Source of the DNA: Gammaproteobacteria bacterium
GTDB taxonomy: Bacteria; Pseudomonadota; Gammaproteobacteria; GCA-001735895
Reading direction: 5' to 3'
Length of the DNA: 64,000 nucleotides
Assembly (NCBI GenBank): GCA_030066085.1
Contig: JASJCI010000036.1
Coordinates: 1-64,000 of the forward strand
Shown: positions 6,404 through 28,409 of the stretch, one piece after another
How positions within the stretch are numbered: position 1 is the first letter of the stretch
Layout of the letters: each line of letters opens with the position of its first letter
Position numbers and translations under genes: made by a program
Notes under the pieces: generated by a model
Told to the model about the DNA's origin: nothing
Database searches by the model: none
What the model saw: only the letters and a program-made list of their open reading frames with translations

Positions 6404-7501
6404 TTAGTCTTGCTCCGCCCCATTCTCGAGTTCGCGCGCATTTTCATAGTCCAGCGCCACCCATTTATCCGGATCGGCGGCATCCATCGAGCTCCAGGCC
6501 TTGCGCAGGAAAGGCGATTCCTCGCAGCGTGCGCGAGGCAGGTCATCATGGATCTGCAGCCAGGGTAGCTGGCTTTCGATACCACCATGCCAGGTCGGCG
6601 CATAGTCCGCCGGATTGTCCAGGACACCTGTCGGTATCGCGAGATAGTTTCCGAGCTCAGGCTTGAGACTGCGCCACAGGACGGGGCTGCCGCACTTGGC
6701 GCAAAAACCGCGTTCGGCGATGAGTGACAGGCGGTGACGTTGCGGCTGGTCCCCGACAAACCTGACGCCGTCGACCGGGAACGCGGTCCAGGCAAACACG
6801 GGCGCGCCGATACTGCGCTGGCAAATCTTGCAGTGACAGTAGCCCGTGCCTAACGATTCCTGCGAGATTTCGATTTCGATCGAACCACAGGCACAGCGAC
6901 CGCGCGTGACGAGCTTGCGTTCGATGGCGTCGTCGAACATCAGCTGGCCCTTTACCCGGGACTCGACCGCCGCCATGGGATGATTCTCGTAGGGATCCTT
7001 TGCGCGAATCTGGTAGACGTGTATGGGTCGACTGATGTTCTTGAAATCGCGGTAACCGAGGTCGTCATAACTGAACTCGATGCCCGACCCGAGCTGGTCG
7101 AATACCGCTCCCGACACGCACACGCCGCCAACCGGCGCGATATCCTGGATCCGGGCGGCGAGGTTGACGCCATCGCCGTAGATATCGCCCCGGTCGTGGA
7201 TGACCTCGCCGAGATTAACACCGATCCTGAACTGGACGCTGTCGCCTTCGCCCGCCCCGCTCTCAGCCATGACTTGCTGAAAACGCAGCGCAGCTTCGAC
7301 CGCGGCGGTCACGGCGGGGAATTCGGCCAGCATCGCGTCGCCGGCCTCGTGTACTTTTTTGCCGCCATGGGCATCGATTTGCTCGATCAGCAGGTTAAGA
7401 CCCTGGTTGAGCTGGCGGTGGGTTTCAGCTTCGTCCTGGCTGGTCAGCCGGCTGTAACCGGCGACGTCGGCGTACAGGATCGCGGCGAGCTGTCGTTCCA
7501 T
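6404..7501 (-). CDS. Class III nucleotide cyclase fused to a GFA domain
   Basis: 365 aa. Residues about 1-170 form a class III adenylate/guanylate cyclase domain: first metal Asp in LYADVAGYSRL, second in AGDAMLAEF, and the RIGVNLGEV and YGDGVNLAARIQ segments with the transition-state Asn and Arg. The usual adenine-selecting Lys before GD is His in KVHEAGD; a related subfamily I recall also lacks it. After a linker, residues about 199-345 form a GFA domain (CACGSIEIE, CHCKIC, CAKCGS). The join lies inside one uninterrupted frame, with no stop or frameshift visible. Soluble; no transmembrane segment. The next minus-strand gene downstream encodes another GFA protein. A fusion of these two domains is unfamiliar to me. 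Confidence 0.9.
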   Translation of the reverse strand: MERQLAAILYADVAGYSRLTSQDEAETHRQLNQGLNLLIEQIDAHGGKKVHEAGDAMLAEFPAVTAAVEAALRFQQVMAESGAGEGDSVQFRIGVNLGEVIHDRGDIYGDGVNLAARIQDIAPVGGVCVSGAVFDQLGSGIEFSYDDLGYRDFKNISRPIHVYQIRAKDPYENHPMAAVESRVKGQLMFDDAIERKLVTRGRCACGSIEIEISQESLGTGYCHCKICQRSIGAPVFAWTAFPVDGVRFVGDQPQRHRLSLIAERGFCAKCGSPVLWRSLKPELGNYLAIPTGVLDNPADYAPTWHGGIESQLPWLQIHDDLPRARCEESPFLRKAWSSMDAADPDKWVALDYENARELENGAEQD

Positions 7502-12750: not shown

Positions 12751-13482
12751 TTACAGGGTCTTGATGATTTTGCGCACGCCGGGCAAATGCCGGCGGCTGA
12801 TTTCGAGGGTATCGTCGATATCGCGAAAGGTAACCTGGTGGCCATCGTTATCGGAACGCATCCCGCCCAGGTGCTGCAGGCTGACCAGTGCATTGCGGTG
12901 AATGCGCACGAAACGATCCTGGAATTCACCCTCGAGATTCTTCAGCGCATCCTCGATCAGCACCTCGCCTTCGGCATGGCGCACGGTGACGTATTTCTGC
13001 TCGGCGTGAAAATAGTAGATGTTTTCGATCGGTACCAGCACGAGGCTGCCGCGCACGCGGGCGCAGATATGCTGGCGCGGCTCGAGTTCGGAGAGTACAT
13101 CGTCGCTCTTGCTCGCCTGCGCGCGGGTCGGGCGAATGGCGGCATCCATCGCCGCCTGCAGGCGCTCCTGTTTGACCGGCTTCAGCAGGTAGTCGACCGC
13201 GTGAGTCTCGAAGGCCTCGAGCGCGTGGTCGGAAAACGCGGTGGCGAAGATCACTGCCGGCGGCTCGTCGAGACGCGCAATGTGGCGCGCGGCCTCGATG
13301 CCGTCCATGCCCGGCATTCTTATGTCCATCAGCACGATGTCGGGCTCGAGACTCTGCGCCAGGCCGAGGGCTTCGAGGCCATTGACCGCTTCACCCACCA
13401 GCTCGTGCTCCTCCAGACCGTTGACCATACGCGCCAGCCGATCGCGCGCCGGCTTTTCGTCGTCGACTATCAGTATCTTCAC
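12751..13482 (-). CDS. algR: LytTR-type response regulator AlgR
   Basis: 243 aa. Receiver domain (1-115; DDE near residue 7, phospho-acceptor Asp in [12 protein letters not shown], Lys in LLKPVKQ) and a LytTR DNA-binding domain (about 140-240; [35 protein letters not shown]). Its ATG overlaps the algZ stop by 4 nt. The position between algZ and hemC is the conserved gammaproteobacterial order, which supports the AlgR name. In pseudomonads AlgR controls alginate and pili; targets here are unknown. Confidence 0.92.
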
Positions 13483-14531
13483 AACGCCTCCGCGCCAGGA
13501 ATTCTTAACCTTACAGTATAGCGCGTCTCGTCCTCTGTGAGCTCCATCGATGCTGCGCCGCCGAACGCGAGCGCCAAACGCTCGCGGATGTTATCCAGCG
13601 CCATGCTGTTGCCCTTGCGTCGCGGGGCGTCTGCCGGCACGACAGGATTGGAAATCGAGATCTCGATTTTGTCACCGACCGTGTCGATCACGAGATCGAT
13701 CGTGCCGCCCTCGGACAGCGGTTCGATGCCGTGGTAAATCGCGTTTTCGACCAGCGGCTGCAGGGTCAACGCCGGCAGGTTTAGTTTCGGCTCCTCCTCC
13801 GGCAGGTGCCAGTTGACCACCAGCCGGTCGCCGAGGCGCAGCGCCTCGAGATCGACGTAACTGCGCGTGAGTTCGAGCTCCTGCGCGAGCGTGATACTCG
13901 ACTCCGCGGCGAGGCTCGCGCGGAACAGGTCGGACAGGTTTTCGATCGCATGTTCGGCGAGGTCGGGCTGATCGTGGGTCAGGCTTGCAATCGTGTTCAT
14001 GCTGTTGAACAGGAAGTGCGGCCGAATGCGCGCCTGTAGCGCCTGCAGGCGCGCGCTGGCCTCGGTCTGCATGCGCAGGTCGGACTCGTAATGCAGGTAA
14101 AAGTAGCGTAGCGCAAGGCCGACCAGGATCGCCGCGATCGCGAGGTTACGCGTCAGCGTCAGCGCGATACTATTCGCAGAGCCAAAGCGCAGCATTTCGC
14201 CAACGGCAAGGCTCAGCAGGCTCGCGAACAGCGTCATCGCGAGTACCACGGCAACGGTGACGATGGTCGTGCGCACATGATCGCCGAGCCAGTCGCGGCG
14301 CGCGAACCAGCACAGCGCGGCGGCCGAGCACAATCCGACCCACAACATGATCACCGAGATCAGCGCGATGTGCACGAACAGCCCGCCGCTGTCGTAACTC
14401 ACCAGGGCGAACACGATCGCGATCAGCTCCACCACCAGCAACAGGCGCAGGAAAACCTCGCCGTCGCAAAAATCGGGCAGGTAGGAACGATTACTGGATT
14501 CGAGGGCCGGTTTTTCCGGAATATCTGGCAT
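13479..14531 (-). CDS. algZ: LytS-family sensor histidine kinase AlgZ/FimS
   Basis: 350 aa. Four membrane helices in the first ~150 residues, then a His_kinase domain (LQARIRPHFLFNSMNTIASL with the phospho-acceptor His) and an HATPase_c domain (LQPLVENAIYHGI, ALDNIRERLALAFG). This family lacks the canonical H-box and uses this PHFLFN motif. Partner of the following response regulator, with which its gene overlaps by 4 nt. The divergent 102-base gap to argH should contain both promoters. Confidence 0.9.
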   Translation of the reverse strand: MPDIPEKPALESSNRSYLPDFCDGEVFLRLLLVVELIAIVFALVSYDSGGLFVHIALISVIMLWVGLCSAAALCWFARRDWLGDHVRTTIVTVAVVLAMTLFASLLSLAVGEMLRFGSANSIALTLTRNLAIAAILVGLALRYFYLHYESDLRMQTEASARLQALQARIRPHFLFNSMNTIASLTHDQPDLAEHAIENLSDLFRASLAAESSITLAQELELTRSYVDLEALRLGDRLVVNWHLPEEEPKLNLPALTLQPLVENAIYHGIEPLSEGGTIDLVIDTVGDKIEISISNPVVPADAPRRKGNSMALDNIRERLALAFGGAASMELTEDETRYTVRLRIPGAEAL

Positions 14532-16927: not shown

Positions 16928-18379
16928 CTACCCGCCCGGTACACCTCCAAAAAGGGCGGGCGCCTGGTCCGAGTGGCGGAGCAGTTCATCAAGCGGGCTG
17001 CGGATCGTTACCCCGGGCTTGTTCAACACGTGCGTATAGATCATGGTCGTCGATACGTCGGCATGCCCGAGCAGTTCCTGCACGGTCCTGATGTCATAGC
17101 CGTTTTCCAGCAGGTGGGTCGCAAACGAATGCCGCAATGCATGACAGTTCACTTTCTTCGTAATGCCGGCAAGACCAGCCGCTTTCTTGATTTGCCGTTG
17201 CAAACTGTTTTCGTGAACGTGGTGGCGACGAGCCTCGCCCGTGCGCGGGTCGGCTGAAATCCGGGCGGCCGGGAAGGCATACTGCCAACGGAACTCGGCG
17301 TCGGCGTTCGGATACTTGCGCAACAAAGCATCCGGCAGAAAAACCCGGCCGAAGCCGCGCGCAAGATCCTCCTCGTGCAGCAACCTGACCCTGTCGATCT
17401 GCACCCGCAAGTCTTCCACGCATGCAGCCGGGATCGGCACGACCCGGTCTTTCCTGCCCTTGGTTTCGCGCACCAGGATATGGCCATAGCCAAAGTCGAG
17501 GTCGAGTACTCGCAGGCGAACACACTCCATCAGTCGAAGACCACAGCCATATAATAATGTTGCCATCAGGCGGTGGGTGCGGCCATCGAGATAACGCAGC
17601 AGCCGGCTGATTTCGTTCGGCGTCAAAACCACGGGTAATCGCCGCTGCTTCTTCGAACGCACAAACTCAATTCGATCGGAGAGCTCGCGTCCCAGCACAC
17701 GCCGATAGAAAAATACCAGTGCATTCAGGGCCTGACCCTGGGTAGCGGCGGAAGCATTACGAGCGGTAACGAGGTTCTCGATGAAGGACGCAATATGCGC
17801 CTCGTCGAGCTCGGCCGGGTCCTGCATCCCGTGAAAAGCGACAAAACGATTGAACCAGTCGAGGTAGGTTTTTTCAGTGCGTGGAGAATACTGCAGCACC
17901 CTGATGCGCGTCATAATTTCCTCCACGTGATGCGGAAACCGATGATGCACTCGCGCCTGCAGGCTTTCTCCCCGGGTGCCACCCTCGCCCGCCTTTTCAA
18001 GTGAACGCGAGGGCAGCGGGCGATAGGATCGATCCAGGGTCACGTGATCATCGGGCAGCGTGTCCGCCGTCGCCAGCCACTCGCCCCAGTCATAGGATTT
18101 TGCCCACGGCAGCTCCGCCATGTCACACAATAAAATCTGTATCGCCTGAACAACCTGGCAAAACTGCCATCGCTGCAGCCGCGGGTTTCTGCCTTTCTCC
18201 TTCAGGTACCGCTGTACATATTCAGCGGAGTGGCTCGATAGCCGCACCTCCGGATAAGCCTTCAAATAGGCTTCCGCATGTCGCACATACCAACGCAATG
18301 CATTGTCATGCACCTTGTAACGTTTTGATATTTCGATATATTTGTCCCAGAAACGGGAACCAGGATCATCCGACATCAT
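16928..18379 (-). CDS. intI: Integron integrase with a long N-terminal extension
   Basis: 483 aa tyrosine recombinase that would insert and excise gene cassettes at attI and attC. Catalytic residues: Arg282 (GCGLRLMEC), Lys307, His413 and Arg416 (HALRHSF), His439 and the nucleophile Tyr448 (MIYTHV). Residues about 350-390 carry the integron-specific insertion (LPDALLRKYP, ADPRTGEARRHH) that other tyrosine recombinases lack. Core-binding domain about 155-245. Residues 1-150 form an extra helical domain absent from the ~320-340 aa class 1-3 enzymes. Tandem ATGs: the second, at 18376, sits at a better distance (7 nt) from AAGGAG than the first. Transcribed away from the cassette array, the usual arrangement. 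Confidence 0.95.
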   Translation of the reverse strand: MMSDDPGSRFWDKYIEISKRYKVHDNALRWYVRHAEAYLKAYPEVRLSSHSAEYVQRYLKEKGRNPRLQRWQFCQVVQAIQILLCDMAELPWAKSYDWGEWLATADTLPDDHVTLDRSYRPLPSRSLEKAGEGGTRGESLQARVHHRFPHHVEEIMTRIRVLQYSPRTEKTYLDWFNRFVAFHGMQDPAELDEAHIASFIENLVTARNASAATQGQALNALVFFYRRVLGRELSDRIEFVRSKKQRRLPVVLTPNEISRLLRYLDGRTHRLMATLLYGCGLRLMECVRLRVLDLDFGYGHILVRETKGRKDRVVPIPAACVEDLRVQIDRVRLLHEEDLARGFGRVFLPDALLRKYPNADAEFRWQYAFPAARISADPRTGEARRHHVHENSLQRQIKKAAGLAGITKKVNCHALRHSFATHLLENGYDIRTVQELLGHADVSTTMIYTHVLNKPGVTIRSPLDELLRHSDQAPALFGGVPGG

Positions 18380-18454
18380 GCTACTCCTTTAGCAATTGAA
18401 TAGAAAAGCCCGTCCGAAGGCTCCACTGGATTATGCGAAATCACCCCCCAAACA

Positions 18455-18521
18455 TCAAACGACAAATACTGATTCTGCCTAACCAGGCAAATTACAGATT
18501 CTGTCTAAATCACTGTTAGAG
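18455..18521 (+). other. attI recombination site of the integron
   Basis: The core GTTAGAG lies at 18515-18521, where the first cassette begins; its complement CTCTAAC matches the end of that cassette's attC. Upstream are two 15-base direct repeats with the consensus AYWGATTCTGYCTAA (18468-18482 and 18494-18508, 13 of 15 identical), placed as accessory integrase-binding sites would be. Left edge approximate. Confidence 0.7.
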
Positions 18522-18529
18522 CACATCAA

Positions 18530-19138
18530 ATGCTACGAATTATTTCAATTTGTATCTGCTGCTTTATCCTTGGATGCAGCGAAACAATTGATTCAGAAGA
18601 TGGCAACCTGATTATTGCATCAGCGTGTGCGAAGAAGCTATCTGACGGCTCTATTGTTGAATGTGACCCTTCAAGCAAGCCAGTAGGAAAATATGGCTCA
18701 ATAATTTTAAAAGTGGTAAAAATAAATAAGTCATTTCCAGGTCCGGAGGATCCATTGACGCGCGGCATTAGTAAAGATCAATTACACCAAGTAAAAGAAA
18801 TTAGTGTCGGTGGGGGTATTAGACTTGAAAACGGAATACTTCTTAAGCTTGCTGGGTTGAAGTGTGAATCCGAGGAAGCAACAAGGTATCTTGAGGATGT
18901 TTTTCTGAATAGGCATAAAGCAAAGTTGTACTTCCAACTCACGGGCTACGAACTTAACCAATATAAATACGCCTATATTTGGGGAGTGTATTTAAACTCA
19001 GATGAACAAGACTCAGAAATTAGCTCGGCAATCACGCCAAATGAACACGTGCTGATTGAAGGTTGGTGTCAACCTATTCCCCAAGAAAATCACCGTTTCC
19101 ACGAACGCTACAAGAGAGTGGCCGCCCTTGGAGAGTAG
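18530..19138 (+). CDS. Cassette 1: lipoprotein with a nuclease-like region
   Basis: 202 aa. N-terminal signal with a lipobox ending FILGC (Cys16), so likely a membrane-anchored lipoprotein. Residues about 95-180 (ILLKLAGLKC, YKYAYIWGVYLN, VLIEGWCQP) are reminiscent of staphylococcal-nuclease-like (SNc) proteins, but the catalytic Arg/Glu set is not clear, so activity is not claimed. The stop lies 2 nt before its attC. Markedly more AT-rich than the genes flanking the integron. Confidence 0.75.
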   Translation: MLRIISICICCFILGCSETIDSEDGNLIIASACAKKLSDGSIVECDPSSKPVGKYGSIILKVVKINKSFPGPEDPLTRGISKDQLHQVKEISVGGGIRLENGILLKLAGLKCESEEATRYLEDVFLNRHKAKLYFQLTGYELNQYKYAYIWGVYLNSDEQDSEISSAITPNEHVLIEGWCQPIPQENHRFHERYKRVAALGE

Positions 19139-19140
19139 TG

Positions 19141-19215
19141 CTCTAACAAGCGCATGCAGACGGACATTTCCACTCGCTACGCGAGTGAAAAAGCCGCTGA
19201 TGCGAGGCGTTAGAG
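19141..19215 (+). repeat. attC site 1
   Basis: 75 bases from CTCTAAC to GTTAGAG. R'' AACAAGCGCATGCAG and R' CCGCTGATGCGAGGCGTTAG are imperfect inverted copies that fold into the recombinogenic hairpin; the middle pairs TCCACTCGC with GCGAGTGAA. Confidence 0.93.
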
Positions 19216-19222
19216 AGCCAAA

Positions 19223-19843
19223 ATGGCGCGAAAAGATTTAGCACTTTCCATCCTACTTGTTTTGTTAGCGCAATCTGGATATTCGGTGGCAAGCGACATA
19301 CCCGATAAACCCATATCAAGTGAGGAGCTAGTCGCATTAATCAAAGCCGAACCACACACGCACTCAAAAGGTATTGTTTTGTCAGCAAAACTACTAGGCG
19401 AACAAAAATCCTTATTGCCTGGCCCCTATTACTTGTCATTGAAGAGAACGACCGAGATCGACGGCTGGGATATTTGGCACCACCCGGAAGATAACTCAAC
19501 GAACATATCTGATCTTGCAGAAATGAATCGAGATCTGATCCAAAAACTATATGGGTCAGACAAAGATAACTCCCTATTTTCTGATGAAGGCAGCATCAAA
19601 CTTAGTCTCGCAGGCCTAAGCGTTCTCGCCACAAGAGACTCTCTTGGAATTATTTGCGGCATACCGATAGCCAGACATATCGACTATGATTTTGATCAGG
19701 CACCAGGTATATGGGCTTTCCGGTTTGAATCTAGTAAGACACGGGAATCTTGTCTTGAGTTTGGATTAATATTTGCTGTTAGTGGTCTGAAGCTAACAGA
19801 ACATGACGGATTGTTAGTCATTGAAAAAACAGATACACACTAG
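19223..19843 (+). CDS. Cassette 2: exported protein of unknown function
   Basis: 206 aa. Signal peptide in the first ~24 residues (ALSILLVLLAQSGYSVA, cut near ASD). The mature part is mixed alpha/beta with no motif I recognise. Ends 3 nt before its attC core. Base composition matches the other cassettes, suggesting acquisition from outside. Confidence 0.7.
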   Translation: MARKDLALSILLVLLAQSGYSVASDIPDKPISSEELVALIKAEPHTHSKGIVLSAKLLGEQKSLLPGPYYLSLKRTTEIDGWDIWHHPEDNSTNISDLAEMNRDLIQKLYGSDKDNSLFSDEGSIKLSLAGLSVLATRDSLGIICGIPIARHIDYDFDQAPGIWAFRFESSKTRESCLEFGLIFAVSGLKLTEHDGLLVIEKTDTH

Positions 19844-19846
19844 GCT

Positions 19847-19921
19847 CTCTAACAAGCGCATGCAGCCGGACCTCACAAGTCGCTACGCGCCTTGTGAGGC
19901 CGCTGATGCTGGACGTTAGGG
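19847..19921 (+). repeat. attC site 2
   Basis: 75 bases from CTCTAAC to GTTAGGG. Internal arms CCTCACAAG and CTTGTGAGG give a stable stem; R' reads GCCGCTGATGCTGGACGTTAG. Confidence 0.93.
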
Positions 19922-19952
19922 GCTACCGAAGAATGTTGGAAAATTTAAATCA

Positions 19953-20372
19953 ATGCCATTAATTCTTAAGTTTCTCACAGCACACGCTATCGCATGCTTA
20001 GGATTTCTAATCGTTTCAGTAATTCCCCTTGAATCTTACATAATCAATGGTCGTTCCGTGACGTATGCAGAGTGGTGGAGTAGCGGCATCGGAGTTTACG
20101 CATCTGTGCTAGGCGCGCTAATGGCGATTGCTGGATTCCTTCTCGTTACAAAGAAACCGTTTTCTCGACAGATTTACTTAGGGATCTTGTCACTAAGCCT
20201 GGCAGCGCCGTACTTTCTGCTTGGAGCACATTGGAGCTCGCTTTTCAGTTTGATTGTCGTAGTCATGATTGCAGCGTATCTACACCTAAAGGCATCAGCA
20301 AAAGAGTACTTCGCCCCTAACAAGCGCATGCAGTCGGACCGTCAGCCGGCTACGCCGTCTGGCGGCCGTTGA
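19953..20372 (+). CDS. Cassette 3: small membrane protein running into its attC
   Basis: 139 aa. Four predicted transmembrane helices (about 8-28, 45-65, 73-90, 95-112). The final residues NKRMQSDRQPA are encoded by the attC site itself, so the coding region reads through the R'' box into the hairpin. Function unknown. The in-frame tail is a common sign of a cassette whose own stop was lost. Confidence 0.7.
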   Translation: MPLILKFLTAHAIACLGFLIVSVIPLESYIINGRSVTYAEWWSSGIGVYASVLGALMAIAGFLLVTKKPFSRQIYLGILSLSLAAPYFLLGAHWSSLFSLIVVVMIAAYLHLKASAKEYFAPNKRMQSDRQPATPSGGR

Positions 20373-20387
20373 TGCTGGACGTTAAGC
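20315..20387 (+). repeat. attC site 3
   Basis: 73 bases from CCCTAAC to GTTAAGC. The internal arms CAGCCGGCTACGCC and the GGCGGCC region are related to those of attC 4, 6 and 7. Overlaps the end of the cassette 3 reading frame. Confidence 0.93.
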
Positions 20388-20428
20388 GGCGAGGTAAAAT
20401 TAGGAGTTAAAGCACGAGGCTTAAAGAA

Positions 20429-20617
20429 ATGAAAGTAAAGGAACTACTGAAAATTCTGGAGGAAGACGGCTGGGTCCTAAATAGAACGAGAGGCAGCCAC
20501 AGACAGTTCAAACACCCAATAAAACCTGGTCTGGTTACGCTTGCTGGTAAACCTTCCGCAGATGTGCCAAAAGGCACGTTAAATACCAGACTTAAACAAT
20601 CTGGACTTAAGGAATAG
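20429..20617 (+). CDS. hicA: Cassette 4: HicA-family mRNA interferase toxin
   Basis: 62 aa, the usual HicA size. HicA_toxin (YcfA) fold with the dsRBD-like sequence LKILEEDGW, the catalytic His in RGSHRQFKHP and a C-terminal GTLNTRLKQSGL. Predicted to cleave mRNA when free of its antitoxin. 9 nt upstream of hicB, in the cassette orientation. Confidence 0.92.
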   Translation: MKVKELLKILEEDGWVLNRTRGSHRQFKHPIKPGLVTLAGKPSADVPKGTLNTRLKQSGLKE

Positions 20618-20626
20618 ACGCAAGTC

Positions 20627-20839
20627 ATGAAATACGCTGTCATCATTGAAAAAGGAGAAGATGGGTACGGCGCGTATGTGCCTGATTTACCGGGATGTAT
20701 TGCCGCCGGCGACACCAAAGACGAAGTAGTCAAACTCATCCAAGAGGCCATCGAATTCCATATCGAAGGGCTTAGAGAAGATGGGCAAACAATTCCAGAG
20801 CCCTCCTCAACCATCGAAATTATCGAAGTCGCCGCCTAA
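20627..20839 (+). CDS. hicB: Cassette 4: HicB-family antitoxin
   Basis: 70 aa. HicB_antitoxin fold: the conserved VPDLPGCIAAGDTKDEV strand-turn-helix and EAIEFHIEGL. It lacks a separate C-terminal DNA-binding domain, as in short HicB proteins. Its TAA stop lies in the GCCTAAC core of attC 4. Neutralises HicA; autoregulation would need partner binding. Confidence 0.9.
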   Translation: MKYAVIIEKGEDGYGAYVPDLPGCIAAGDTKDEVVKLIQEAIEFHIEGLREDGQTIPEPSSTIEIIEVAA

Positions 20840-20906
20840 CAAGCGCATGCAGCCGGACCGCCAGCCGGCTACGCCGTCTGTCGGCCGCTGATGCTGAACG
20901 TTAGAT
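20834..20906 (+). repeat. attC site 4
   Basis: 73 bases from GCCTAAC to GTTAGAT. R' carries CTGATGCTGAACGTTAG, one change from attC 2. Its right end encodes the stop codon of the inverted ccdB. Confidence 0.93.
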
Positions 20907-21218
20907 GCCCGTGATAAGCATGTCTATAGCATCAAGGATTTCGTATCGAAAGTCTTCCAATGACGCCTCTTCTCTCGCCAGTATTGAGGACGGGACCGAG
21001 GTCATTTGATGGGTGAGAAGCACGTAATTTCCCCCGCGAATAGGAATAACCGGACAAAGCCTCTCAACATCAGTTTTATTTAGTGAATTGTGCCCCGTGA
21101 GTGGAATGACCAATCTCGAATTCAAATCGGAAAACAATGCATTCTGGACATCGACAAAGTATGGATAAGTTTCTTTAGAGCGCTTATCCTGATTTTTGTA
21201 AACGCAAAATTGAGTCAT
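20901..21218 (-). CDS. ccdB: Cassette 5: CcdB-family gyrase toxin
   Basis: 105 aa. CcdB fold: TYPYFVDVQNALFSDL, RLVIPLTGH and LTHQMTSVPSSIL. The last residues are ITGI where the F-plasmid protein ends WGI; my recollection is that the Vibrio fischeri integron CcdB also ends this way. Predicted to poison DNA gyrase. Encoded opposite to the other cassettes, so it needs its own promoter. Shares one base with the ccdA stop (TAATG). Confidence 0.93.
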   Translation of the reverse strand: MTQFCVYKNQDKRSKETYPYFVDVQNALFSDLNSRLVIPLTGHNSLNKTDVERLCPVIPIRGGNYVLLTHQMTSVPSSILAREEASLEDFRYEILDAIDMLITGI

Positions 21219-21463
21219 TAAAACTCACGAAAACTATCAGAGAACAGGCCTCTCTGTTCTGCCAGATTGTTTAGTGCCGAAATGGCTTTTTTGTTTCTCT
21301 TTAACCACTTCTCCTTTTCGGCATTTTTAATTTCTAAAACCAGGGCCTTTTCCAAAGTTGCAGAGAGATTGATTTTCATTTTTCGAGCACGAGAGAGTAG
21401 ATCGCTATTAACACTTAAATTGGTTGGTTTTTTTGCTGCCTTTGAATCAAACACATGTGCCAT
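21218..21463 (-). CDS. ccdA: Cassette 5: CcdA-family antitoxin
   Basis: 81 aa. N-terminal ribbon-helix-helix (KPTNLSVNSDLLSRARKMKINLS) for DNA binding and dimerisation, C-terminal region KWLKRNKKAISALNNLAEQRGLFSD that wraps CcdB and ends in the conserved acidic/aromatic tail. First gene of the ccdAB operon. Confidence 0.92.
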   Translation of the reverse strand: MAHVFDSKAAKKPTNLSVNSDLLSRARKMKINLSATLEKALVLEIKNAEKEKWLKRNKKAISALNNLAEQRGLFSDSFREF

Positions 21464-21515
21464 GTTGAAAACCTTTCAATACGCATTCAATATGCGCATT
21501 ATTATGCACATAGAT
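21464..21515 (-). promoter_or_regulatory. Candidate ccdAB promoter-operator
   Basis: The 50-odd bases between ccdA and attC 5 are AT-rich and hold the imperfect palindrome TATGCGCATTATTATGCACA (21491-21510), placed where CcdA autoregulation would act. On the minus strand, AAAGG precedes the ccdA ATG. No confident -35/-10 pair is claimed. Confidence 0.4.
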
Positions 21516-21520
21516 CGGAC

Positions 21521-21595
21521 ATCTAACAAGCGCATTCAGCCGGACCTCACAAGTCGCTGCGCGCCTTGTGAGGCCGCTGATGCTCGACGTTATGC
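21521..21595 (+). repeat. attC site 5
   Basis: 75 bases from ATCTAAC to GTTATGC, nearly identical to attC 2 (CCTCACAAG/CTTGTGAGG arms), with CGCATTCAG in R''. Confidence 0.93.
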
Positions 21596-21607
21596 GTAAA
21601 TAGACCG

Positions 21608-22279
21608 ATGTCACTTAAAGGTTGGCTTGGAGAAAAGAAGACCACGTTTAATATGTGGCTGTCTCTCAACAAGGAGGTTTATCGTAGATTCCACAACTTA
21701 ATAATTCCCGCGAAAAATGGAACTACACAAATCGATCATCTACTTGTATCGCCTTATGGGTTATTCATTGTCGAAACAAAAAACAAGAAGGGTTGGATCT
21801 TTGGGTCGGAAGACCAACCGAAATGGACCCAATCGATATATGGAAAAAAGTACTCCTTTCAGAACCCGTTGCGACAAACCTACCGGCAAAAGAAAGTTCT
21901 CTCAGAATACCTAGGAATCGACGAGTCAAAAATTAGAGCAGTGGTGTTTTTTGTTGGTGACTGCAAATTCAAAACACGTCTACCAGAGAACGTTATCAAA
22001 TCTGGACTCGGCAGATACATTAAACAGTTTAAAACCACAATTATTGATGCATTGGAAATCGATACAATCACAGTGCGTCTCCAGAGACACGCCCTGGAAT
22101 CCACACTTTCAAACAAGGACCACGTCCAGTCTTTACGTGAACGGCATAATTCGACTACTGTTTGCCCAAAGTGCGGTTCTAATCTTGTAGAAAGGACAGC
22201 ACGAAAAGGCTCTAATGCAGGCTCAAAATTTCTTGGTTGCGAAAACTATCCAAAATGTCGGTTCACCAAAAACGCATAA
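21608..22279 (+). CDS. Cassette 6: NERD-domain protein with topoisomerase-type zinc finger
   Basis: 223 aa. NERD (nuclease-related) domain about 20-130, with conserved acidic/Glu-x-Lys positions GTTQIDHLLVSPYGLFIVETKN. A C-terminal zinc finger of topoisomerase I type (CPKCGSNLVERTAR...FLGCENYPKCRFTKN, about 180-223). This combination suggests a DNA-binding nuclease, plausibly defence- or repair-related, but no direct evidence of activity is visible. The stop lies in the GCATAAC core of attC 6. Confidence 0.85.
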   Translation: MSLKGWLGEKKTTFNMWLSLNKEVYRRFHNLIIPAKNGTTQIDHLLVSPYGLFIVETKNKKGWIFGSEDQPKWTQSIYGKKYSFQNPLRQTYRQKKVLSEYLGIDESKIRAVVFFVGDCKFKTRLPENVIKSGLGRYIKQFKTTIIDALEIDTITVRLQRHALESTLSNKDHVQSLRERHNSTTVCPKCGSNLVERTARKGSNAGSKFLGCENYPKCRFTKNA

Positions 22280-22346
22280 CAAGCGCATCCAGCCGGACCG
22301 CCAGCCGGCTACGCCGTCTGTCGGCCGCTGATGCTGGACGTTATGT
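22274..22346 (+). repeat. attC site 6
   Basis: 73 bases from GCATAAC to GTTATGT; R'' is AACAAGCGCATCCAG. Same central arms as attC 4. Confidence 0.93.
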
Positions 22347-22361
22347 GCTTTCAACTTCAGT

Positions 22362-22389
22362 CTGAAAAAACAACCAAAATCCGTATAAT
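22362..22389 (+). promoter_or_regulatory. Candidate promoter for the cassette 7 addiction module
   Basis: TATAAT at 22384-22389 is a perfect -10 box. CTGAAA at 22362-22367 is a fair -35 at 16 bases. The expected start point falls on or beside the ATG at 22396, which would give a leaderless transcript. Confidence 0.45.
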
Positions 22390-22395
22390 TCGGTC

Positions 22396-22596
22396 ATGGA
22401 TATTAATTCTCTCTCTGTTTCAGAACGTATTCTGTTGGCCCAGGAGCTCTGGGACAGCATCCACGACAGATCCGACGAAATTGAAGTATCTCCAGAACAG
22501 ATGAAGATGCTAGAGGAGCGATTAGCAGCCTATCACGCTGATGGCGATCCTGGCGATTCTTGGGAAAACGTCAGAGCCAGAATAGAAAACACCTGA
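22396..22596 (+). CDS. Cassette 7: addiction-module antitoxin-like protein
   Basis: 66 aa. Matches the small addiction-module family (TIGR02574 type): LSVSERILLAQELWDSI near the N-terminus, acidic central helix, and C-terminal PGDSWENVRARI. Paired with the ParE/RelE-like toxin, whose GTG start follows the stop by 2 nt. Probable antitoxin of a type II system. Confidence 0.85.
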   Translation: MDINSLSVSERILLAQELWDSIHDRSDEIEVSPEQMKMLEERLAAYHADGDPGDSWENVRARIENT

Positions 22597-22598
22597 AC

Positions 22599-22895
22599 GT
22601 GAAGTTCAATTTATCCATTCGGAAGGAAGCCGAAGCGGATATCGCCGAAGCACACCAATACTATGAGAATTGCAATCCGCCCTTGGGCTCTGCATTTTTG
22701 ATATGTATTGACGAAGCAATTTCCAGAATTGAACGAAATCCCCGGCAATGCAGAGTAATAGGAAATGATATTAGGCGAGCGCTGGTCAAACGTTTCACGT
22801 ATGGCGTTTTCTATACAATAAATGATCATCAAATTATTGTAATTTCGGTGGCCCATGCCAGGCGAAATCCAACACATTGGAAATCACGCACATAA
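22599..22895 (+). CDS. Cassette 7: ParE/RelE-superfamily toxin
   Basis: 98 aa from the GTG at 22599; an upstream in-frame ATG would overlap the antitoxin and gives an unlikely N-terminus. ParE/RelE fold: IRKEAEADIAEAHQYYE, FLICIDEAISRIERNP, and the closing VISVAHARRNPTHW. ParE- or RelE-type specificity cannot be told apart reliably from this sequence. Stop lies in the ACATAAC core of attC 7. Confidence 0.88.
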   Translation: MKFNLSIRKEAEADIAEAHQYYENCNPPLGSAFLICIDEAISRIERNPRQCRVIGNDIRRALVKRFTYGVFYTINDHQIIVISVAHARRNPTHWKSRT

Positions 22896-22962
22896 CAAGC
22901 GCATGCAGTCGGACCGCCAGCCGGCTGCGCTGTCTGTCGGCCGCTGATGCTGGACGTTAAGT
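22890..22962 (+). repeat. attC site 7
   Basis: 73 bases from ACATAAC to GTTAAGT; central GCCGGCTGCGCTGTC differs slightly from attC 4 and 6. Confidence 0.92.
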
Positions 22963-22975
22963 GGTTTCGTAAGAC

Positions 22976-23302
22976 ATGAACCTACTTTTCGTTTGCAGCG
23001 AGAACAGATTAAGGAGCCCAACCGCTGAAGAAGTGTTCTCGAAATATGAAGGAATAAATGCGATCGGGGCTGGTACAAACAATGACGCCTTCACACCCGT
23101 CAGTGGGGATTTGATTGCATGGGCGGACATAATTTTTGTCATGGAAAGAGCCCATCGAAACAAGGTATCGAGGAAATACAAACAATTACTAAAAGACAAA
23201 AGGCTGATTTGCCTGGACATTCCCGATGACTACGAAAGAATGGACCCTTGTCTGATTAGACTTTTAGAAAACAAGGTTAACAGGCATGTACGAATCAGAT
23301 AA
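22976..23302 (+). CDS. Cassette 8: low-molecular-weight tyrosine-phosphatase-like protein
   Basis: 108 aa. Phosphatase P-loop C-x5-R-S at CSENRLRS (Cys7, Arg13) and the small-family signatures RSPTAEEVFSKY, AWADIIFVMERAHRNKV and CLDIPDDYERMDP. This matches the COG4551 group of short phosphatase-like proteins. Substrate unknown; the motif is complete, so activity is possible. Confidence 0.87.
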   Translation: MNLLFVCSENRLRSPTAEEVFSKYEGINAIGAGTNNDAFTPVSGDLIAWADIIFVMERAHRNKVSRKYKQLLKDKRLICLDIPDDYERMDPCLIRLLENKVNRHVRIR

Positions 23303-23305
23303 ACC

Positions 23306-23380
23306 ACGTAACAAGCGCATGCACACGTATCAGCCCACTCGCTGCGCTCACGGTCTGGCTGCGGATGCGTGGCGTGATGT
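23306..23380 (+). repeat. attC site 8 (divergent)
   Basis: 75 bases from ACGTAAC to GTGATGT. The left core is normal; the right one has G in place of T at the third position. Arms CAGCCCACTCG and CGGTCTGGCTG pair only in part. Confidence 0.8.
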
Positions 23381-23404
23381 GGCGAGCAATCTGACGTCAG
23401 GTAA

Positions 23405-23866
23405 CTGAGCATTAGTATTACATTCAAAAAAGCCGAGCCATCTGATCTACCTGTACTAATGCGCCTTATGCAGGAATTTCATGAATTTGATCACACAGAA
23501 CCATTTGATGAGGCTCCGGCGAAGATGGCCATGGAAAATGTGATGTCGGATGAACGAGTCGGACTGGTATGGTTAATCAGGTCCTCTGGCGAAGATGTTG
23601 GCTATATCGTGCTTACGCTGCACTATCGACTTGAGTCACGAGGGACATGCGCTAATTTGGATGAGCTTTTTATTAACGAAGCAAATCGCGGTCAGGGAAT
23701 TGGCAGCAAAGCAATGGAATTTCTCGAGAATACTTGCAGGGATCACGGCGTTGCAGTCATGCAATTAGAGGTAAAAAAGGACAATCCCGAGGCAGCTTCC
23801 TTGTATGAGAAAGCGGGGTTCGAAATACTTGATCGTGATTTCATGCTCAAAAATATTGCCACATAA
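23405..23866 (+). CDS. Cassette 9: GNAT acetyltransferase with unusual start
   Basis: About 153 aa. GNAT fold with acetyl-CoA-binding motif A NRGQGIGSKAMEFLE and the motif B end YEKAGFEILDRDFML. The first beta strand SITFKKAEPSDLPVLMRLMQ is encoded upstream of the first ATG (23459), between an in-frame TAA and that ATG, where only CTG (23405) or ATT codons could start it. The family's N-terminus is needed for the fold, so I extend it to 23405. The ATG would give 135 aa. Stop lies in the ACATAAC core of attC 9. Confidence 0.7.
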   Translation: MSISITFKKAEPSDLPVLMRLMQEFHEFDHTEPFDEAPAKMAMENVMSDERVGLVWLIRSSGEDVGYIVLTLHYRLESRGTCANLDELFINEANRGQGIGSKAMEFLENTCRDHGVAVMQLEVKKDNPEAASLYEKAGFEILDRDFMLKNIAT

Positions 23867-23933
23867 CAATCGCATGCAGTCTGACCAGCTAAACACTGCG
23901 CGCTTCGCTGGCCGCTGATGCAAGCCGTCATAA
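23861..23933 (+). repeat. attC site 9 (divergent)
   Basis: 73 bases from ACATAAC to about GTCATAA. R'' reads AACAATCGCATGCAG, R' CCGCTGATGCAAGCCGTC. The right core departs from GTTRRRY. Confidence 0.8.
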
Positions 23934-23957
23934 GGCTGTTTTGAGGGAAATGTAGAA

Positions 23958-24305
23958 ATGGCATTTAGCGAACTTGAAAGAAACCGCATTGGAAAAATCA
24001 TGGAAGACTACCTGGAGAGAGTCAGGCCTCCCGCGCATCTTAGGGATCGAGTAGATATTGCCTATCGAGTAGACAATCAAAGCGTAGAGTTATTCGAAAT
24101 CCGCCCAGCCTTTCAAAGGCCAACCCAGAAAGTGGAAGAGGCTATAGCAAAGGCAACCTATGTAAAACGGGCGATGGAATGGAGATTGTATTGGATGAGG
24201 GCTGATTTAAGGTGGCACAGGTACGAGCCTGTCCCGGAGGTAGAAAAGCTGGAGGAATTTCTCCAGGTTGTTGAAGAAGATGCATATAGCTGTTTTTATG
24301 GTTGA
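23958..24305 (+). CDS. Cassette 10: DUF3024 protein
   Basis: 115 aa. Matches the DUF3024 family in the segments RPPAHLRDRVDIAYRV, ELFEIRPAF and the aromatic WRLYWMRADLRWHRYEP. Function unknown. Members are common as single-gene cassettes and accessory genes. AGGGAAA lies upstream of the ATG. Confidence 0.8.
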   Translation: MAFSELERNRIGKIMEDYLERVRPPAHLRDRVDIAYRVDNQSVELFEIRPAFQRPTQKVEEAIAKATYVKRAMEWRLYWMRADLRWHRYEPVPEVEKLEEFLQVVEEDAYSCFYG

Positions 24306-24308
24306 CCC

Positions 24309-24380
24309 ACGTAACAAGGTGCTGCAGTCGCACAAAGTGCCCTCTACGCGGGCACTTTATCGCTGAGCGCCGCGTCATGT
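24309..24380 (+). repeat. attC site 10
   Basis: 72 bases from ACGTAAC to GTCATGT. Different arms from its neighbours: AAAGTGCCC and GGGCACTTT pair perfectly round a short loop. Confidence 0.85.
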
Positions 24381-24398
24381 GTCTTTCAAATCCCGCCA

Positions 24399-24692
24399 AT
24401 GAATAATCAAACGCTTAGTGAAATAGGGCTAGAGTTAGCAAGCGAACTGAACCAGCTCAGCGAGCAGTTTCATGTTAAGTCAGATGCCAGGGATATCCTT
24501 GGATACGAAGCGGCTACAGTAGAAGAAGAAGCGAGAGATTTGATAGAGAATTGTGGCGTCAGTGAGCATCTAAGAAAATCTACCCTACTAAGTAAATGGG
24601 GTGACTCGATATTACACCAGCTTCCTGATTCCGAAATCATAGCTAGAGTCAGAGAATTTCATGCAAATTACCGCAAACAAAAAAACGCATAA
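24399..24692 (+). CDS. Cassette 11: small helical protein of unknown function
   Basis: 97 aa, largely helical, acidic in the middle (VEEEARDLIENCG) and basic at the end. No family recognised. Stop lies in the GCATAAC core of attC 11, so the gene spans the cassette almost completely. Confidence 0.65.
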   Translation: MNNQTLSEIGLELASELNQLSEQFHVKSDARDILGYEAATVEEEARDLIENCGVSEHLRKSTLLSKWGDSILHQLPDSEIIARVREFHANYRKQKNA

Positions 24693-24759
24693 CAAGCGCA
24701 TGCGGGCGGACCAAGTACGCGCCGCGCGGTTATTGCGTCGCTGAGACTCAGCGCTATGC
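24687..24759 (+). repeat. attC site 11
   Basis: 73 bases from GCATAAC to GCTATGC. The left core is normal, the right one has C for T at the second position. R'' AACAAGCGCATGCGG is retained. Confidence 0.75.
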
Positions 24760-24791
24760 GGTGTATCGCGTGAGCAAGAACCACGACAACG

Positions 24792-25235
24792 TCAAGCACT
24801 GAACAGTTTTGCAATCTTCTTAAGCGTCGCTAGCGTTGTTTTCAGATCCTCAATTGGCATATTACCCGCACACTCGTTTGCCCACGGAATCTGAATGGCC
24901 TCCATTTTTTCATATACGCTTTTGCCGAGCGCAGTCAAAACAGCAAGCTTGGCACGCTTGTGATTGGGATTATCCTGGAATTCGACCAGTCCCGTTTCGC
25001 ACATGATGTTAACCAGGCTTTGCACCGCCTGACGAGATTGCCCCATATTACGCGCAATCTGTGACACGGTGAGCGGATGCTCGGACCGTGCCAACGCACC
25101 CAGGATTTTCCATCTTGCACTGCTTAGCCCAAGCGGCGCAGCGATACGGTCCCCTTCGGTCGCAAGCAGGCCGCTCAATCTGAACGATTCGATGACGATC
25201 TCGGTAAATGCATGACCTTTAGTGCTGTGTTTCAT
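24792..25235 (-). CDS. MarR-family transcriptional regulator
   Basis: 147 aa from the ATG at 25235; the frame runs 13 residues further upstream but into the operator. Winged helix: LGLSSARWKILGALARSEHPLTVSQIARNMGQSRQAVQSLVNIM, then the wing NPNHKRAKLAVLT. The divergent membrane-protein gene and the shared palindromes suggest it represses itself and that gene. Ligand unknown. Confidence 0.9.
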   Translation of the reverse strand: MKHSTKGHAFTEIVIESFRLSGLLATEGDRIAAPLGLSSARWKILGALARSEHPLTVSQIARNMGQSRQAVQSLVNIMCETGLVEFQDNPNHKRAKLAVLTALGKSVYEKMEAIQIPWANECAGNMPIEDLKTTLATLKKIAKLFSA

Positions 25236-25256
25236 GACAAGCCTCAAAAATCGTAT

Positions 25257-25294
25257 TTGACAACTTATTGTCATAATGACAATATATTGTCATA
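25257..25294. promoter_or_regulatory. Nested palindromic operator between marR and the membrane protein
   Basis: A perfect 16-base palindrome TGACAATATATTGTCA at 25277-25292 overlaps another, TTGTCATAATGACAA (25268-25282), and a TTGACAA half-site at 25257. Four TTGTCA-type half-sites in 38 bases fit two bound MarR dimers. The AT-rich stretch also offers promoter elements for both directions. Confidence 0.75.
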
Positions 25295-25316
25295 TTATTC
25301 TATTGGACTGCTCATT

Positions 25317-25775
25317 ATGAAACAAGTCGTTCACCGCGTTGCAGCCATAGTCGCCGCTCTATGTATCGGAACTTTTCTTGTTGCGACCATTGTTGTCGAG
25401 TTGTTGGGAAACAGCTCGATGATTGCCACCGTCAAGAATCTAATCGTAATGCCAGGCCTGTTTATCCTCGTGCCCGCGATAGCGGCAGCCGGGGTAACTG
25501 GCTTTGCCGTGGCGGGTCAGCGCAAAGGCGAGCTGATTGATAAAAAGAAAAAACGGATGCCGTTTATAGGAGCAAACGGGATCCTGGTACTTTTGCCAGC
25601 TGCGATCTATCTCGACCATCTCGCCGCAGGCGGCAATTTCGACACCGTTTTCTACCTGGTCCAGGCGCTCGAACTAATCGCGGGCAGTGTTAACCTGACC
25701 TTGATGTCATTGAACATTCGCGACGGACTTAAAATGTCAGGACGCCTGCGCCGCTTGAATCAGACAGTCGCTTAA
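25317..25775 (+). CDS. Membrane protein of unknown function, divergent from MarR
   Basis: 152 aa. Four predicted transmembrane helices (about 8-30, 40-62, 82-98, 105-125) with a basic KGELIDKKKKR loop. ATG at 25317; the longer frame upstream runs through the operator and is not used. Possible effector controlled by the MarR protein. No family recognised. Confidence 0.8.
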   Translation: MKQVVHRVAAIVAALCIGTFLVATIVVELLGNSSMIATVKNLIVMPGLFILVPAIAAAGVTGFAVAGQRKGELIDKKKKRMPFIGANGILVLLPAAIYLDHLAAGGNFDTVFYLVQALELIAGSVNLTLMSLNIRDGLKMSGRLRRLNQTVA

Positions 25776-25829
25776 GCTGTTCTCCAATAACCTGGCGTGG
25801 CGCACCTGAAATGAGAATGCCCAAAACAC

Positions 25830-25889
25830 CCGGCAACAAGCGCATGCAGCCGGACCGGGCTGCTCCCGGCCGCTCAAGCGCGCCATATG
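25830..25889 (+). repeat. Degenerate attC site 12
   Basis: About 60 bases. The left box GGCAACAAGCGCATGCAGCC is intact; CCGGACCGGGCTG and GGCCGCTCAAGC follow, but no GTTRRRY core is left. Shorter than the upstream sites. Confidence 0.7.
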
Positions 25890-26049
25890 GAACGATTCTC
25901 GACAAAACACAGTAACGCTTTGGACAGGGCTATGGCCTTCGTCTTTAAATATTTCTTTATGCAAAGCCAAGTATTATTAAATTTACCTGGCACCAGGCGT
26001 GTGCCAGCCTTCGCTCATCAAAATTTACCTGTACGGAACCTGACTAGCC

Positions 26050-26277
26050 ATGCCAAAGTACAACGACAAATTCACATTAGACATCGATGATGTCGCGCTA
26101 ATAGAACAAGCACTGCGTACCCTTTGGTCTGAGGAAGAAAAGAAACTTCCGCCAGAAAAAGTTTTCCCGATAAAAACAACGGATCGGATCAGGGATATTC
26201 ATAGTTTGCTGGGGAAGATTTCCAGCCAGAAAATCTATTACAGTGAAGTAAACAGAACATCCTGTCCTATAGGTTAG
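26050..26277 (+). CDS. Small cytoplasmic protein of unknown function
   Basis: 75 aa, acidic/basic helical, with LDIDDVALIEQALRTLW and DIHSLLGKISSQKIYY. No family I can name. The position between degraded attC sites suggests an old cassette. The ATG is reasonable but has no clear ribosome site. Confidence 0.6.
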   Translation: MPKYNDKFTLDIDDVALIEQALRTLWSEEEKKLPPEKVFPIKTTDRIRDIHSLLGKISSQKIYYSEVNRTSCPIG

Positions 26278-26757
26278 GGCCAATACATACGAGGCCGCCA
26301 GGAATCATCAGTCCAGCTTAAGACACCCCGGGATGCCAATTCCGGGAACGGTGCGCGCATTTCTTTTGAGTAAATTTCATCGGGCGCCTGATGGCTTACC
26401 GATAAGCAAGCCATGGCCAGGATGGCTATGACTTGTTTCGAGTGCCTCGCAGTCTATGGCCCAGCATGGTTTCCACTGAATCCAGGCCGGCTACTACCGG
26501 GTAAAAGCAGTTCGGCCGTCGAGACCCTGGTTAGCAGTACGCCCATACCGGCAGGCCCATGGACAGTGACCAACTCGCGCACGTCCTGCAAGCGAGAGCC
26601 GAAAGGTCGCTTGCACGTCACTGTACAGAAGCAAAACGTCACCCACCTGGCTGGTCGCTGATGCGGGGCGTCTGGTTCCATATGAAATCTCTTCACTCGA
26701 TTCAACAAACGCGTGTTACATTGCCATGATTAAATGTCGCAGACAAAGGAGAGACAG
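26278..26757. other. Intergenic region with a degraded attC right half
   Basis: 480 bases with no credible gene; the open frame at 26413-26661 looks like chance. Around 26650-26680 is CTGGTCGCTGATGCGGGGCG, clearly the R' half of an attC. Its core now reads GTCTGGT and the matching left half is not recognisable. A decayed cassette may have filled this stretch. Confidence 0.55.
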
Positions 26758-27174
26758 ATGCGCAGAGGTAGCTGTCAATGTGGGCAGGTTCAGTTCGAGT
26801 TCACCGGAGAACCCATAAACCAGGTTTTCTGTTACTGCACTGACTGTCAAAAGAGGACCGGCAGTGATCAGTGGTTCGGTATCTGGGTACCCAGTGAAAA
26901 CTTCAGGTTTACAGGTGAATCAGAACCGGCAGTATATACAACACAGGATGACGCTGGCGGCAATATCCATTGCTACACTTGCCCCAATTGTGGCGTCAGT
27001 TTGAGTGTCGAATTTTCGCGCGCAGGCTTCCATACCGTCGCCGCCGCATGTATCGATGGAAACGAGGAATTCAAACCAAAACTGGCCATCTTCACATCGT
27101 CAGCACCGAAGTGGGCAATAGTACCCACGGACATTCCCGTGTTTGATAAATTGCCGCCAGAGATGAGCGGTTAG
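26758..27174 (+). CDS. GFA-fold zinc protein in a decayed cassette
   Basis: 138 aa. Zinc ligands CQCGQVQFEF near residue 6, CYCTDCQKRTG near 27 and CPNCGVSLSVEF near 76; full GFA length. The ATG at 26758 has AGGAG 8 nt upstream; an earlier in-frame ATG (26734) adds 8 residues without a ribosome site. Activity unassigned. Confidence 0.87.
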   Translation: MRRGSCQCGQVQFEFTGEPINQVFCYCTDCQKRTGSDQWFGIWVPSENFRFTGESEPAVYTTQDDAGGNIHCYTCPNCGVSLSVEFSRAGFHTVAAACIDGNEEFKPKLAIFTSSAPKWAIVPTDIPVFDKLPPEMSG

Positions 27175-27175
27175 A

Positions 27176-27252
27176 AACTAACAAAACGCATGCAGCCGTA
27201 CCTCACGAACCGCCAGGCGTCTTGTTATACCGCTGGTGCTGGACAGTACGAA
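27176..27252 (+). repeat. Degenerate attC site 13
   Basis: 77 bases from AACTAAC to GTACGAA. R'' AACAAAACGCATGCAGCCG and R' CCGCTGGTGCTGGACAG are recognisable; CCTCACGAA with TTGTTATA pairs only in part. Confidence 0.7.
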
Positions 27253-27272
27253 TAAAGTCAGCCAGCACGCGC

Positions 27273-27497
27273 ATGCCGGATAAGTTATACCTCATATCCC
27301 TGTTTGTTATCTGGCTGATCTACGTGTCCTGGCGGGGTGTGAAATATTACAAACTGGAAGATGAAATTCATGCTCGCTTCGACGAATTCGAAAAGTCCTT
27401 GCGTAGCGGAGTCGACGAATACAGGTGTTTCACAAACAACCATCCCCACGTCTGGGGTGAGGAAAACTACCAACGCTTAAAAAAAGAAAATCATTAA
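27273..27497 (+). CDS. Small single-pass membrane protein
   Basis: 74 aa from the ATG at 27273. One N-terminal transmembrane helix (about 4-21, LISLFVIWLIYVSW) and a charged cytoplasmic tail. The longer frame begins inside attC 13. Function unknown. Confidence 0.55.
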   Translation: MPDKLYLISLFVIWLIYVSWRGVKYYKLEDEIHARFDEFEKSLRSGVDEYRCFTNNHPHVWGEENYQRLKKENH

Positions 27498-27528
27498 CTC
27501 GCCGCGTATCGATGGAAAAAATCTCCTG

Positions 27529-27675
27529 ATGTTTTTTATTTTTGGAGACGAGTTCAGCCTGAAAGCAGATGAAGATAAACTGTATATTTATATCGCTCTA
27601 GGGGCAGAGAAATTCGAGTGGAACTCGTTGTGTCATGAAGACGAATGGCGTAGGCGCAAGGTTATTCATTACTGA
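27529..27675 (+). CDS. Very small ORF of unknown function
   Basis: 48 aa: begins MFFIFGDEF, acidic, with KLYIYIALGAEKFEWNSL and the charged end EDEWRRRKVIHY. Composition is protein-like and AT-rich as in cassettes. It lies directly before a degraded attC. Could be part of the same cassette as the preceding membrane protein, or a fragment. Confidence 0.4.
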   Translation: MFFIFGDEFSLKADEDKLYIYIALGAEKFEWNSLCHEDEWRRRKVIHY

Positions 27676-27681
27676 TTCACA

Positions 27682-27756
27682 TCACAGGAAGCGCCTGCAG
27701 GCGCGCCAAACCAGGTGTCGTACTCCCAGCCTGGCCGCTTGTGCAAGGCTTTACAG
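27682..27756 (+). repeat. Degenerate attC site 14
   Basis: R'' AGGAAGCGCCTGCAG and R' GGCCGCTTGTGCAAGGC align with the consensus sites; both cores are lost. The left arm GCGCCTGCAGGCGC now forms its own palindrome. Confidence 0.55.
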
Positions 27757-27786
27757 TCGCCTATGTAATGAAAAACCGGAGGGCAA

Positions 27787-28209
27787 ATGAGCGAGGGTAA
27801 AGGTCGCTGCCTGTGCGGCGCAGTGAGTTTCACCGTTAAAAACATGAACTACAGCGTGGACTCCTGTCATTGCGGTATGTGCAGAAGATGGGGTGGCGGA
27901 CCCTTGATGTTCGTCGATTGCAGCACGGATGTCAGTTTCGAAGGAGCGGAAAACATCACGGTATACGACTCTTCCGACTGGGCAGAGCGAGCCTTTTGCA
28001 GGAAATGCGGCAGTCACATTTTTTACCGGCTCAAGCACAACCACGCCCACCAGATGCTGGTGGGACAGTTTGACGAGCAAGAAAACTTTCATTTCGATCT
28101 GCAGGTATACATGGACAGCAAACCGGCCTTTTACGACTTTGCAAATAAAACGCGGGAACTGACGGAGACCGAGGTTATCGAAGAATTTGGCCCCGGGCAG
28201 AATACCTGA
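27787..28209 (+). CDS. GFA-fold zinc protein
   Basis: 140 aa. Zinc ligands CLCGAVSF near residue 8, CHCGMCRRWGGGP near 28 and CRKCGSHIFYR near 71. A His-rich stretch (LKHNHAHQ) follows the third site. Function unassigned. Lies between two degraded attC sites, so probably a former cassette; not closely similar to the GFA protein at 26758 except at the ligands. Confidence 0.87.
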   Translation: MSEGKGRCLCGAVSFTVKNMNYSVDSCHCGMCRRWGGGPLMFVDCSTDVSFEGAENITVYDSSDWAERAFCRKCGSHIFYRLKHNHAHQMLVGQFDEQENFHFDLQVYMDSKPAFYDFANKTRELTETEVIEEFGPGQNT

Positions 28210-28278
28210 CAAAAGTGCATACTACGGAATTGTGAATCTCGGCGCGACCAGGGCAGCCGTTGAGGCGGGGCGTTAAAC
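28203..28278 (+). repeat. Degenerate attC site 15
   Basis: Starts at the GFA stop (CCTGACAAAAGTGCAT for CCTAACAAGCGCATGC) and ends GAGGCGGGGCGTTAAAC, where GTTAAAC still resembles a core. Central stem poorly conserved. Confidence 0.55.
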
Positions 28279-28409
28279 AGCATGTGAATTTGGCCCCTGG
28301 AACCCGGGTTTACAAAGTATATTGCTTACTGTGGGTCTCCCGAGCATACTCCCGCACAAAGCAAACATGACGCAGGTTCGAATGATCCTGAAAACGTCAA
28401 GGTGAATCC

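Follow-up and report, generated by a model that had tools for sequence, protein, structure and literature searches.

The stretch of gammaproteobacterial DNA analysed here, 64,000 nucleotides long and hereafter called the window, contains a gene that joins a class III nucleotide cyclase domain to a zinc-binding GFA domain, and the GFA half of its product is probably an undescribed sensor controlling a cyclic-nucleotide signal. The reading that we favour, and consider rather likely, is that of a soluble cyclase whose GFA domain serves as a zinc- or thiol-based input changing its activity. More tentatively, we suggest that a dedicated clade of GFA domains may be a bacterial zinc/thiol sensory module not described so far, which would have been joined independently to at least two lineages of class III cyclases and to a winged-helix transcription factor, and would place cyclic-nucleotide and gene control under a metabolite or redox signal. 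GFA proteins abound, yet their role is disputed; even for Gfa, the formaldehyde- and glutathione-related function is contested (PMC4682968). With one GFA clade wired to cyclases and to a DNA-binding domain, cyclase activity can report the ligand of the GFA domain, and if the proposal is true, the zinc-thiol beta-tent joins the list of bacterial sensor domains.

An earlier note, made from the letters of the window, had described the gene as one uninterrupted frame of 365 codons joining the two domains. This is what we find: the frame starts with ATG, has 365 codons plus a stop, and harbours a Guanylate_cyc match (PF00211) at residues 6-149 (E 3e-12, 46.8 bits, cut-off 21.9) and a GFA match (PF04828) at residues 199-305 (E 7e-19, 68.5 bits, cut-off 24.3). 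Sequence searches of the PDB divide the protein in the same way, with residues 2-165 matching 3mr7, a cyclase of Silicibacter pomeroyi, and residues 201-315 matching 8ajq, the CENP-V/GFA protein PA2722. The linker varies in length between fusion clades and is shorter in the roseobacter-type one. The C-terminal extension is also present in the nearest stand-alone GFA proteins. No second protein with both domains was found in the window's own genome.

Table 1. Features of the fusion gene and of the adjacent GFA gene (positions in the window)
Feature	Position	Strand	Evidence
Cyclase-GFA fusion gene	6404..7501	-	Uninterrupted frame with an ATG start; full length conserved across 8 genomes within the genus and, at greater distance, in further families
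Class III nucleotide cyclase domain, residues 1-166	7004..7501	-	Pfam PF00211; PDB 3mr7 E 2e-32 (sequence), Foldseek E 1e-15; motif comparison
Linker, residues 167-198, low predicted order	6908..7003	-	AF2 pLDDT <50 at 170-193; identity lower and dN/dS higher than elsewhere in the protein
GFA (beta-tent) domain, residues 199-305	6587..6907	-	Pfam PF04828; AF2 model; cysteines
C-terminal extension ESQxPWLxxxDDLPRxR...SPxLxxAW	6404..6586	-	Alignment of GFA proteins
Adjacent stand-alone GFA protein, 119 aa	5984..6343	-	Pfam PF04828 E 1e-14

In the alignment of fused proteins, D12 and D55 make up the metal-binding Asp pair, D55 being invariant and D12 present in every sequence that covers it, and the transition-state residues N113 and R117 are invariant in 15 fused proteins. 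These are the Asp pair and the Asn and Arg that had been pointed out in the earlier note, and together with the domain score they place the protein among the class III nucleotide cyclases. The domain had also been called complete, to which the base-selecting residue adds a caveat. D106 is present, but in the window's clade the position of the base-selecting Lys, four before D55, is occupied by His51, and the Lys plus Asp/Thr signature of canonical adenylate cyclases is thus lacking. The alphaproteobacterial fusions have Lys at that position, the unfused cyclases of the genus His or Arg. His51 bears on the substrate rather than on class III membership; judging from the residue, activity or substrate could be unusual, and because of it the product, whether cAMP, cGMP or another nucleotide, is uncertain.

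The closest unfused cyclases in the genus, with open frames of 589-860 aa, carry other C-terminal partners, indicating that this cyclase family swaps partners. The S. pomeroyi protein 3mr7 belongs to the same family (the fusion is 40% identical to it by structure alignment, with the metal Asp pair and the Asn/Arg kept); its relatives also have other C-terminal partners, and GFA was found on none of them outside the present set of fusions. Mycobacterial LipJ/Rv1900c is likewise a single-chain protein that combines a cyclase with a domain resembling a small-molecule enzyme and has a noncanonical residue at the base-selecting Lys position, but its partner is an N-terminal alpha/beta hydrolase whereas that of the fusion is a C-terminal zinc beta-tent. 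The LipJ NCBIfam model gives the fusion 48 bits against a cut-off of 800. A protein encoded on a Paraburkholderia plasmid (L149:1851-3353) starts with a cyclase of the fusion's own family and continues into what appears, by eye only, to be an alpha/beta hydrolase, an order reversed with respect to LipJ. Modular sensory control of class III cyclases is also found in PAS, GAF, BLUF and HAMP cyclases, in which a known sensor usually precedes the cyclase at the N-terminus; here, in contrast, the partner is a C-terminal GFA domain attached through a flexible linker.

As for the GFA half, the earlier description of a complete zinc-binding domain is supported by the Pfam match and by the presence of all seven cysteines. 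By their counterparts in Gfa of Paracoccus denitrificans (C31/C33/C99/C102 and C52/C54/C57; PMC4682968), C203, C205, C267 and C270 are assigned to a four-Cys zinc site and C222, C224 and C227 to a three-Cys site. Across 31 GFA domains, six of the seven never vary, and C270 is missing only in one (L013). Folded alone, the domain gave a confident AF2 model with a pLDDT of 93.7, whose closest solved GFA structure is PA2722 (8ajq; Z 17.1, 128 residues, 2.3 A, 26% identity), a stand-alone CENP-V/GFA protein without a cyclase domain; the model also matches Gfa (1x6m; Z 11.6, 145 residues, 4.0 A). Domain score, both cysteine sites and the predicted fold thus identify a GFA beta-tent. Gfa (1x6m/1xa8) has the same fold and both zinc sites, but it is a stand-alone protein of 13% identity, and its glutathione-contacting Arg98 aligns with F266, a Phe invariant in the 31 domains. 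With respect to this residue, the fused domain departs from the Gfa-type glutathione-dependent formaldehyde-activating enzymes. In the full-length AF2 model both domains are ordered, yet how they lie towards each other is not predicted (pTM 0.47, linker pLDDT <50), and hence no coupling path is visible in it. Foldseek with the full model returned only cyclases in its top 50 (3mr7, E 1e-15), which is why the GFA part was folded separately.

We found 17 cyclase-GFA proteins; the pairing thus occurs, with different cyclases, in at least 16 bacterial genomes including that of the window. In the genus of the window, the fusion is present in 8 of the 31 species examined, with 61-67% identity along the whole length. 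Another gammaproteobacterial family has one fusion (L182, in G1419), a family of roseobacter affinity has six such proteins in 5 genomes (L067, L072, L073, L074, L075 and L076; 38-41% identity), and another alphaproteobacterial family has one (L153, in G957). In Zongyanglinia marina, the copy (L017:4860-6020) has an in-frame TAG inside the cyclase part and is either a decayed gene or affected by a sequence error. The taxonomic label available for the roseobacter-affinity family places it in the same phylum as the window; its alphaproteobacterial nature is suggested by IS110 elements on its contig that are 81-94% identical to elements on Ruegeria, Phaeobacter and Sulfitobacter plasmids. IS110-type transposase sequences close to plasmid copies of these three genera lie directly downstream of one alphaproteobacterial fusion gene (L115:8992-9094 and 12969-13854).

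The earlier note had named a sequencing error, a missed stop or a frameshift between residues 170 and 200, as what would undo the join. Such an origin is ruled out by the 15 further uninterrupted proteins, next to the one interrupted copy, and by the low dN/dS on either side, about 0.04-0.07 for the cyclase part and 0.03-0.12 for the GFA part in close pairs. The join is therefore real, and purifying selection acts on both of its halves (dN/dS about 0.03-0.12). Recurrence across genomes also dismisses the idea of a one-off oddity. In tblastn searches, no plasmid or phage match covered both domains: the long matches, found in Microvirga, Paraburkholderia and Rhizobium ruizarguesonis, combine a cyclase with something other than GFA, and the viral contigs matched the cyclase part only.

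In the GFA tree, all sampled fused domains, i.e. 15 distinct cyclase-linked sequences and one linked to a winged helix, form a single clade (support 99/95). No stand-alone GFA protein among those sampled falls inside it, and the nearest ones, several of which are from the window's genus, lie outside. The winged-helix protein, a Trans_reg_C domain fused to GFA, comes from one contig of a Rhodobacteraceae MAG (L018:4614-5498); on plasmids, no further protein of this type was found above 80% coverage. The cyclase tree has a different shape. The gammaproteobacterial fusions group with the unfused cyclases of the genus (support 99), and the roseobacter-type and Zongyanglinia-type ones are placed elsewhere. 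A clade of gammaproteobacterial and roseobacter-type cyclases is rejected (p-AU 0.007; 0.0105 in an earlier set), as is one of gammaproteobacterial and Zongyanglinia-type cyclases (p-AU 0.004), whereas roseobacter-type plus Zongyanglinia-type is not (p-AU 0.48) and all three types together are borderline (p-AU 0.057). One common origin of the fused cyclases was set aside on these grounds, with the borderline value for all three types as a reservation. From these phylogenies, one GFA lineage is combined with two or more lineages of cyclase and with a DNA-binding domain; either fusion happened repeatedly or the cyclase was replaced while the GFA domain stayed.

In ToxR/CadC-like proteins, the partner of the winged-helix output domain is commonly the sensor. 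As one GFA clade is repeatedly tied to signalling outputs, GFA is best read as an input domain, and it is the simplest reading that the partner shared by the two outputs is the input. The N-terminal domain of the soluble enzyme would make a cyclic nucleotide as a homodimer, and the C-terminal zinc beta-tent would change its activity when a small molecule meets the labile zinc/thiol site C222/C224/C227 or the GFA groove. The signal would most likely be a thiol, a redox change or a reactive carbonyl. Beta-tent folds are ligand-binding scaffolds with a groove, and the RIG-I C-terminal regulatory domain is one of them (PMC4287342); the zinc at the three-Cys site of Gfa is labile, and Gfa cannot bind glutathione without C54 (PMC4682968), the counterpart of C224. 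It is for these reasons that we favour a zinc- or thiol-based sensor.

Other readings account for part of these data. The two halves might form a tethered bifunctional enzyme, in which GFA keeps a catalytic or carrier job and the cyclase signals alongside, or in which the cyclic nucleotide controls GFA. Every zinc cysteine of an enzyme-like family is kept, and cyclase-enzyme fusions do exist, as exemplified by the Paraburkholderia protein and by LipJ, which is named a bifunctional lipase/cyclase. We nevertheless regard this as unlikely, since the same GFA clade on a DNA-binding winged helix fits an input domain better and Gfa itself did not catalyse formation of the formaldehyde-glutathione adduct in careful assays (PMC4682968). 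Alternatively, GFA could be a structural zinc module involved in stability or dimer formation, or a neutral passenger. The fusion is sporadically distributed: among 31 genomes of the genus it occurs in 8, and among 395 of the roseobacter-type family in 3. This pattern and the flexible linker would agree with such a reading. The union of GFA with at least two cyclase lineages, the dN/dS of the GFA part and the retention of the labile three-Cys site, and not only of the structural four-Cys one, make it quite improbable.

A more specific form of sensing, in which GFA is a detector for formaldehyde or S-hydroxymethylglutathione, with detoxification as the response to the cyclic nucleotide, is suggested by the name of the family and by the ability of Gfa to bind glutathione (Kd about 500 uM; PMC4682968). 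We consider it very unlikely: all members of the fused clade have Phe in place of the Arg with which Gfa contacts glutathione, and no formaldehyde genes are linked to the fusion, whose neighbours differ between genomes. The earlier suggestion of a GFA domain that senses a small thiol or a formaldehyde adduct and tunes the cyclase output is thus plausible with respect to tuning, given the repeated pairing of the GFA clade, but a formaldehyde-glutathione adduct as the specific ligand is not supported, in view of these observations and of the lack of adduct catalysis in Gfa.

Class III cyclases with diverse partners are already known, and GFA proteins are common. In agreement with the earlier note, which knew of no protein with this pair, we found neither an NCBIfam model nor a paper for the combination; domain-architecture databases were outside this search and may list it. 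In the cited part of PMC554113, the two Pfam families figure among those over-represented in Proteobacteria associated with plants, but they are not mentioned together.

The next minus-strand gene downstream encodes a stand-alone GFA protein, as had been noted. It lies 60 bp from the fusion on the same strand, is 21% identical to the fused domain and belongs to a different GFA branch, and in other genomes it does not accompany the fusion. As support for a sensor role it is weak evidence, because five stand-alone GFA genes lie in the window, of which two or more are within or next to an integron cassette array. A function derived from the operon or neighbours was also discarded, as the neighbours are conserved only among four genomes with a common SecF-flanked context. 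The four other stand-alone GFA genes are located at 26734-27174, 27787-28209, 33482-33907 and 57150-57593, the first two being those in or beside the array, and the window's genome encodes about a dozen GFA proteins. Integron cassettes carry GFA genes more often than most other genes (PMC7370490), and it is possible that integron cassettes are a source of mobile GFA domains. The array itself is probably a chromosomal integron: a tyrosine recombinase resembling integron integrases (16928-18379, minus strand) is followed, at about 18400-30200, by a stretch of low G+C (0.45-0.50) with small plus-strand ORFs, between which lie about a dozen attC-like repeats (TAACAAGCGCATGC...GATGCTGGACGTTA).
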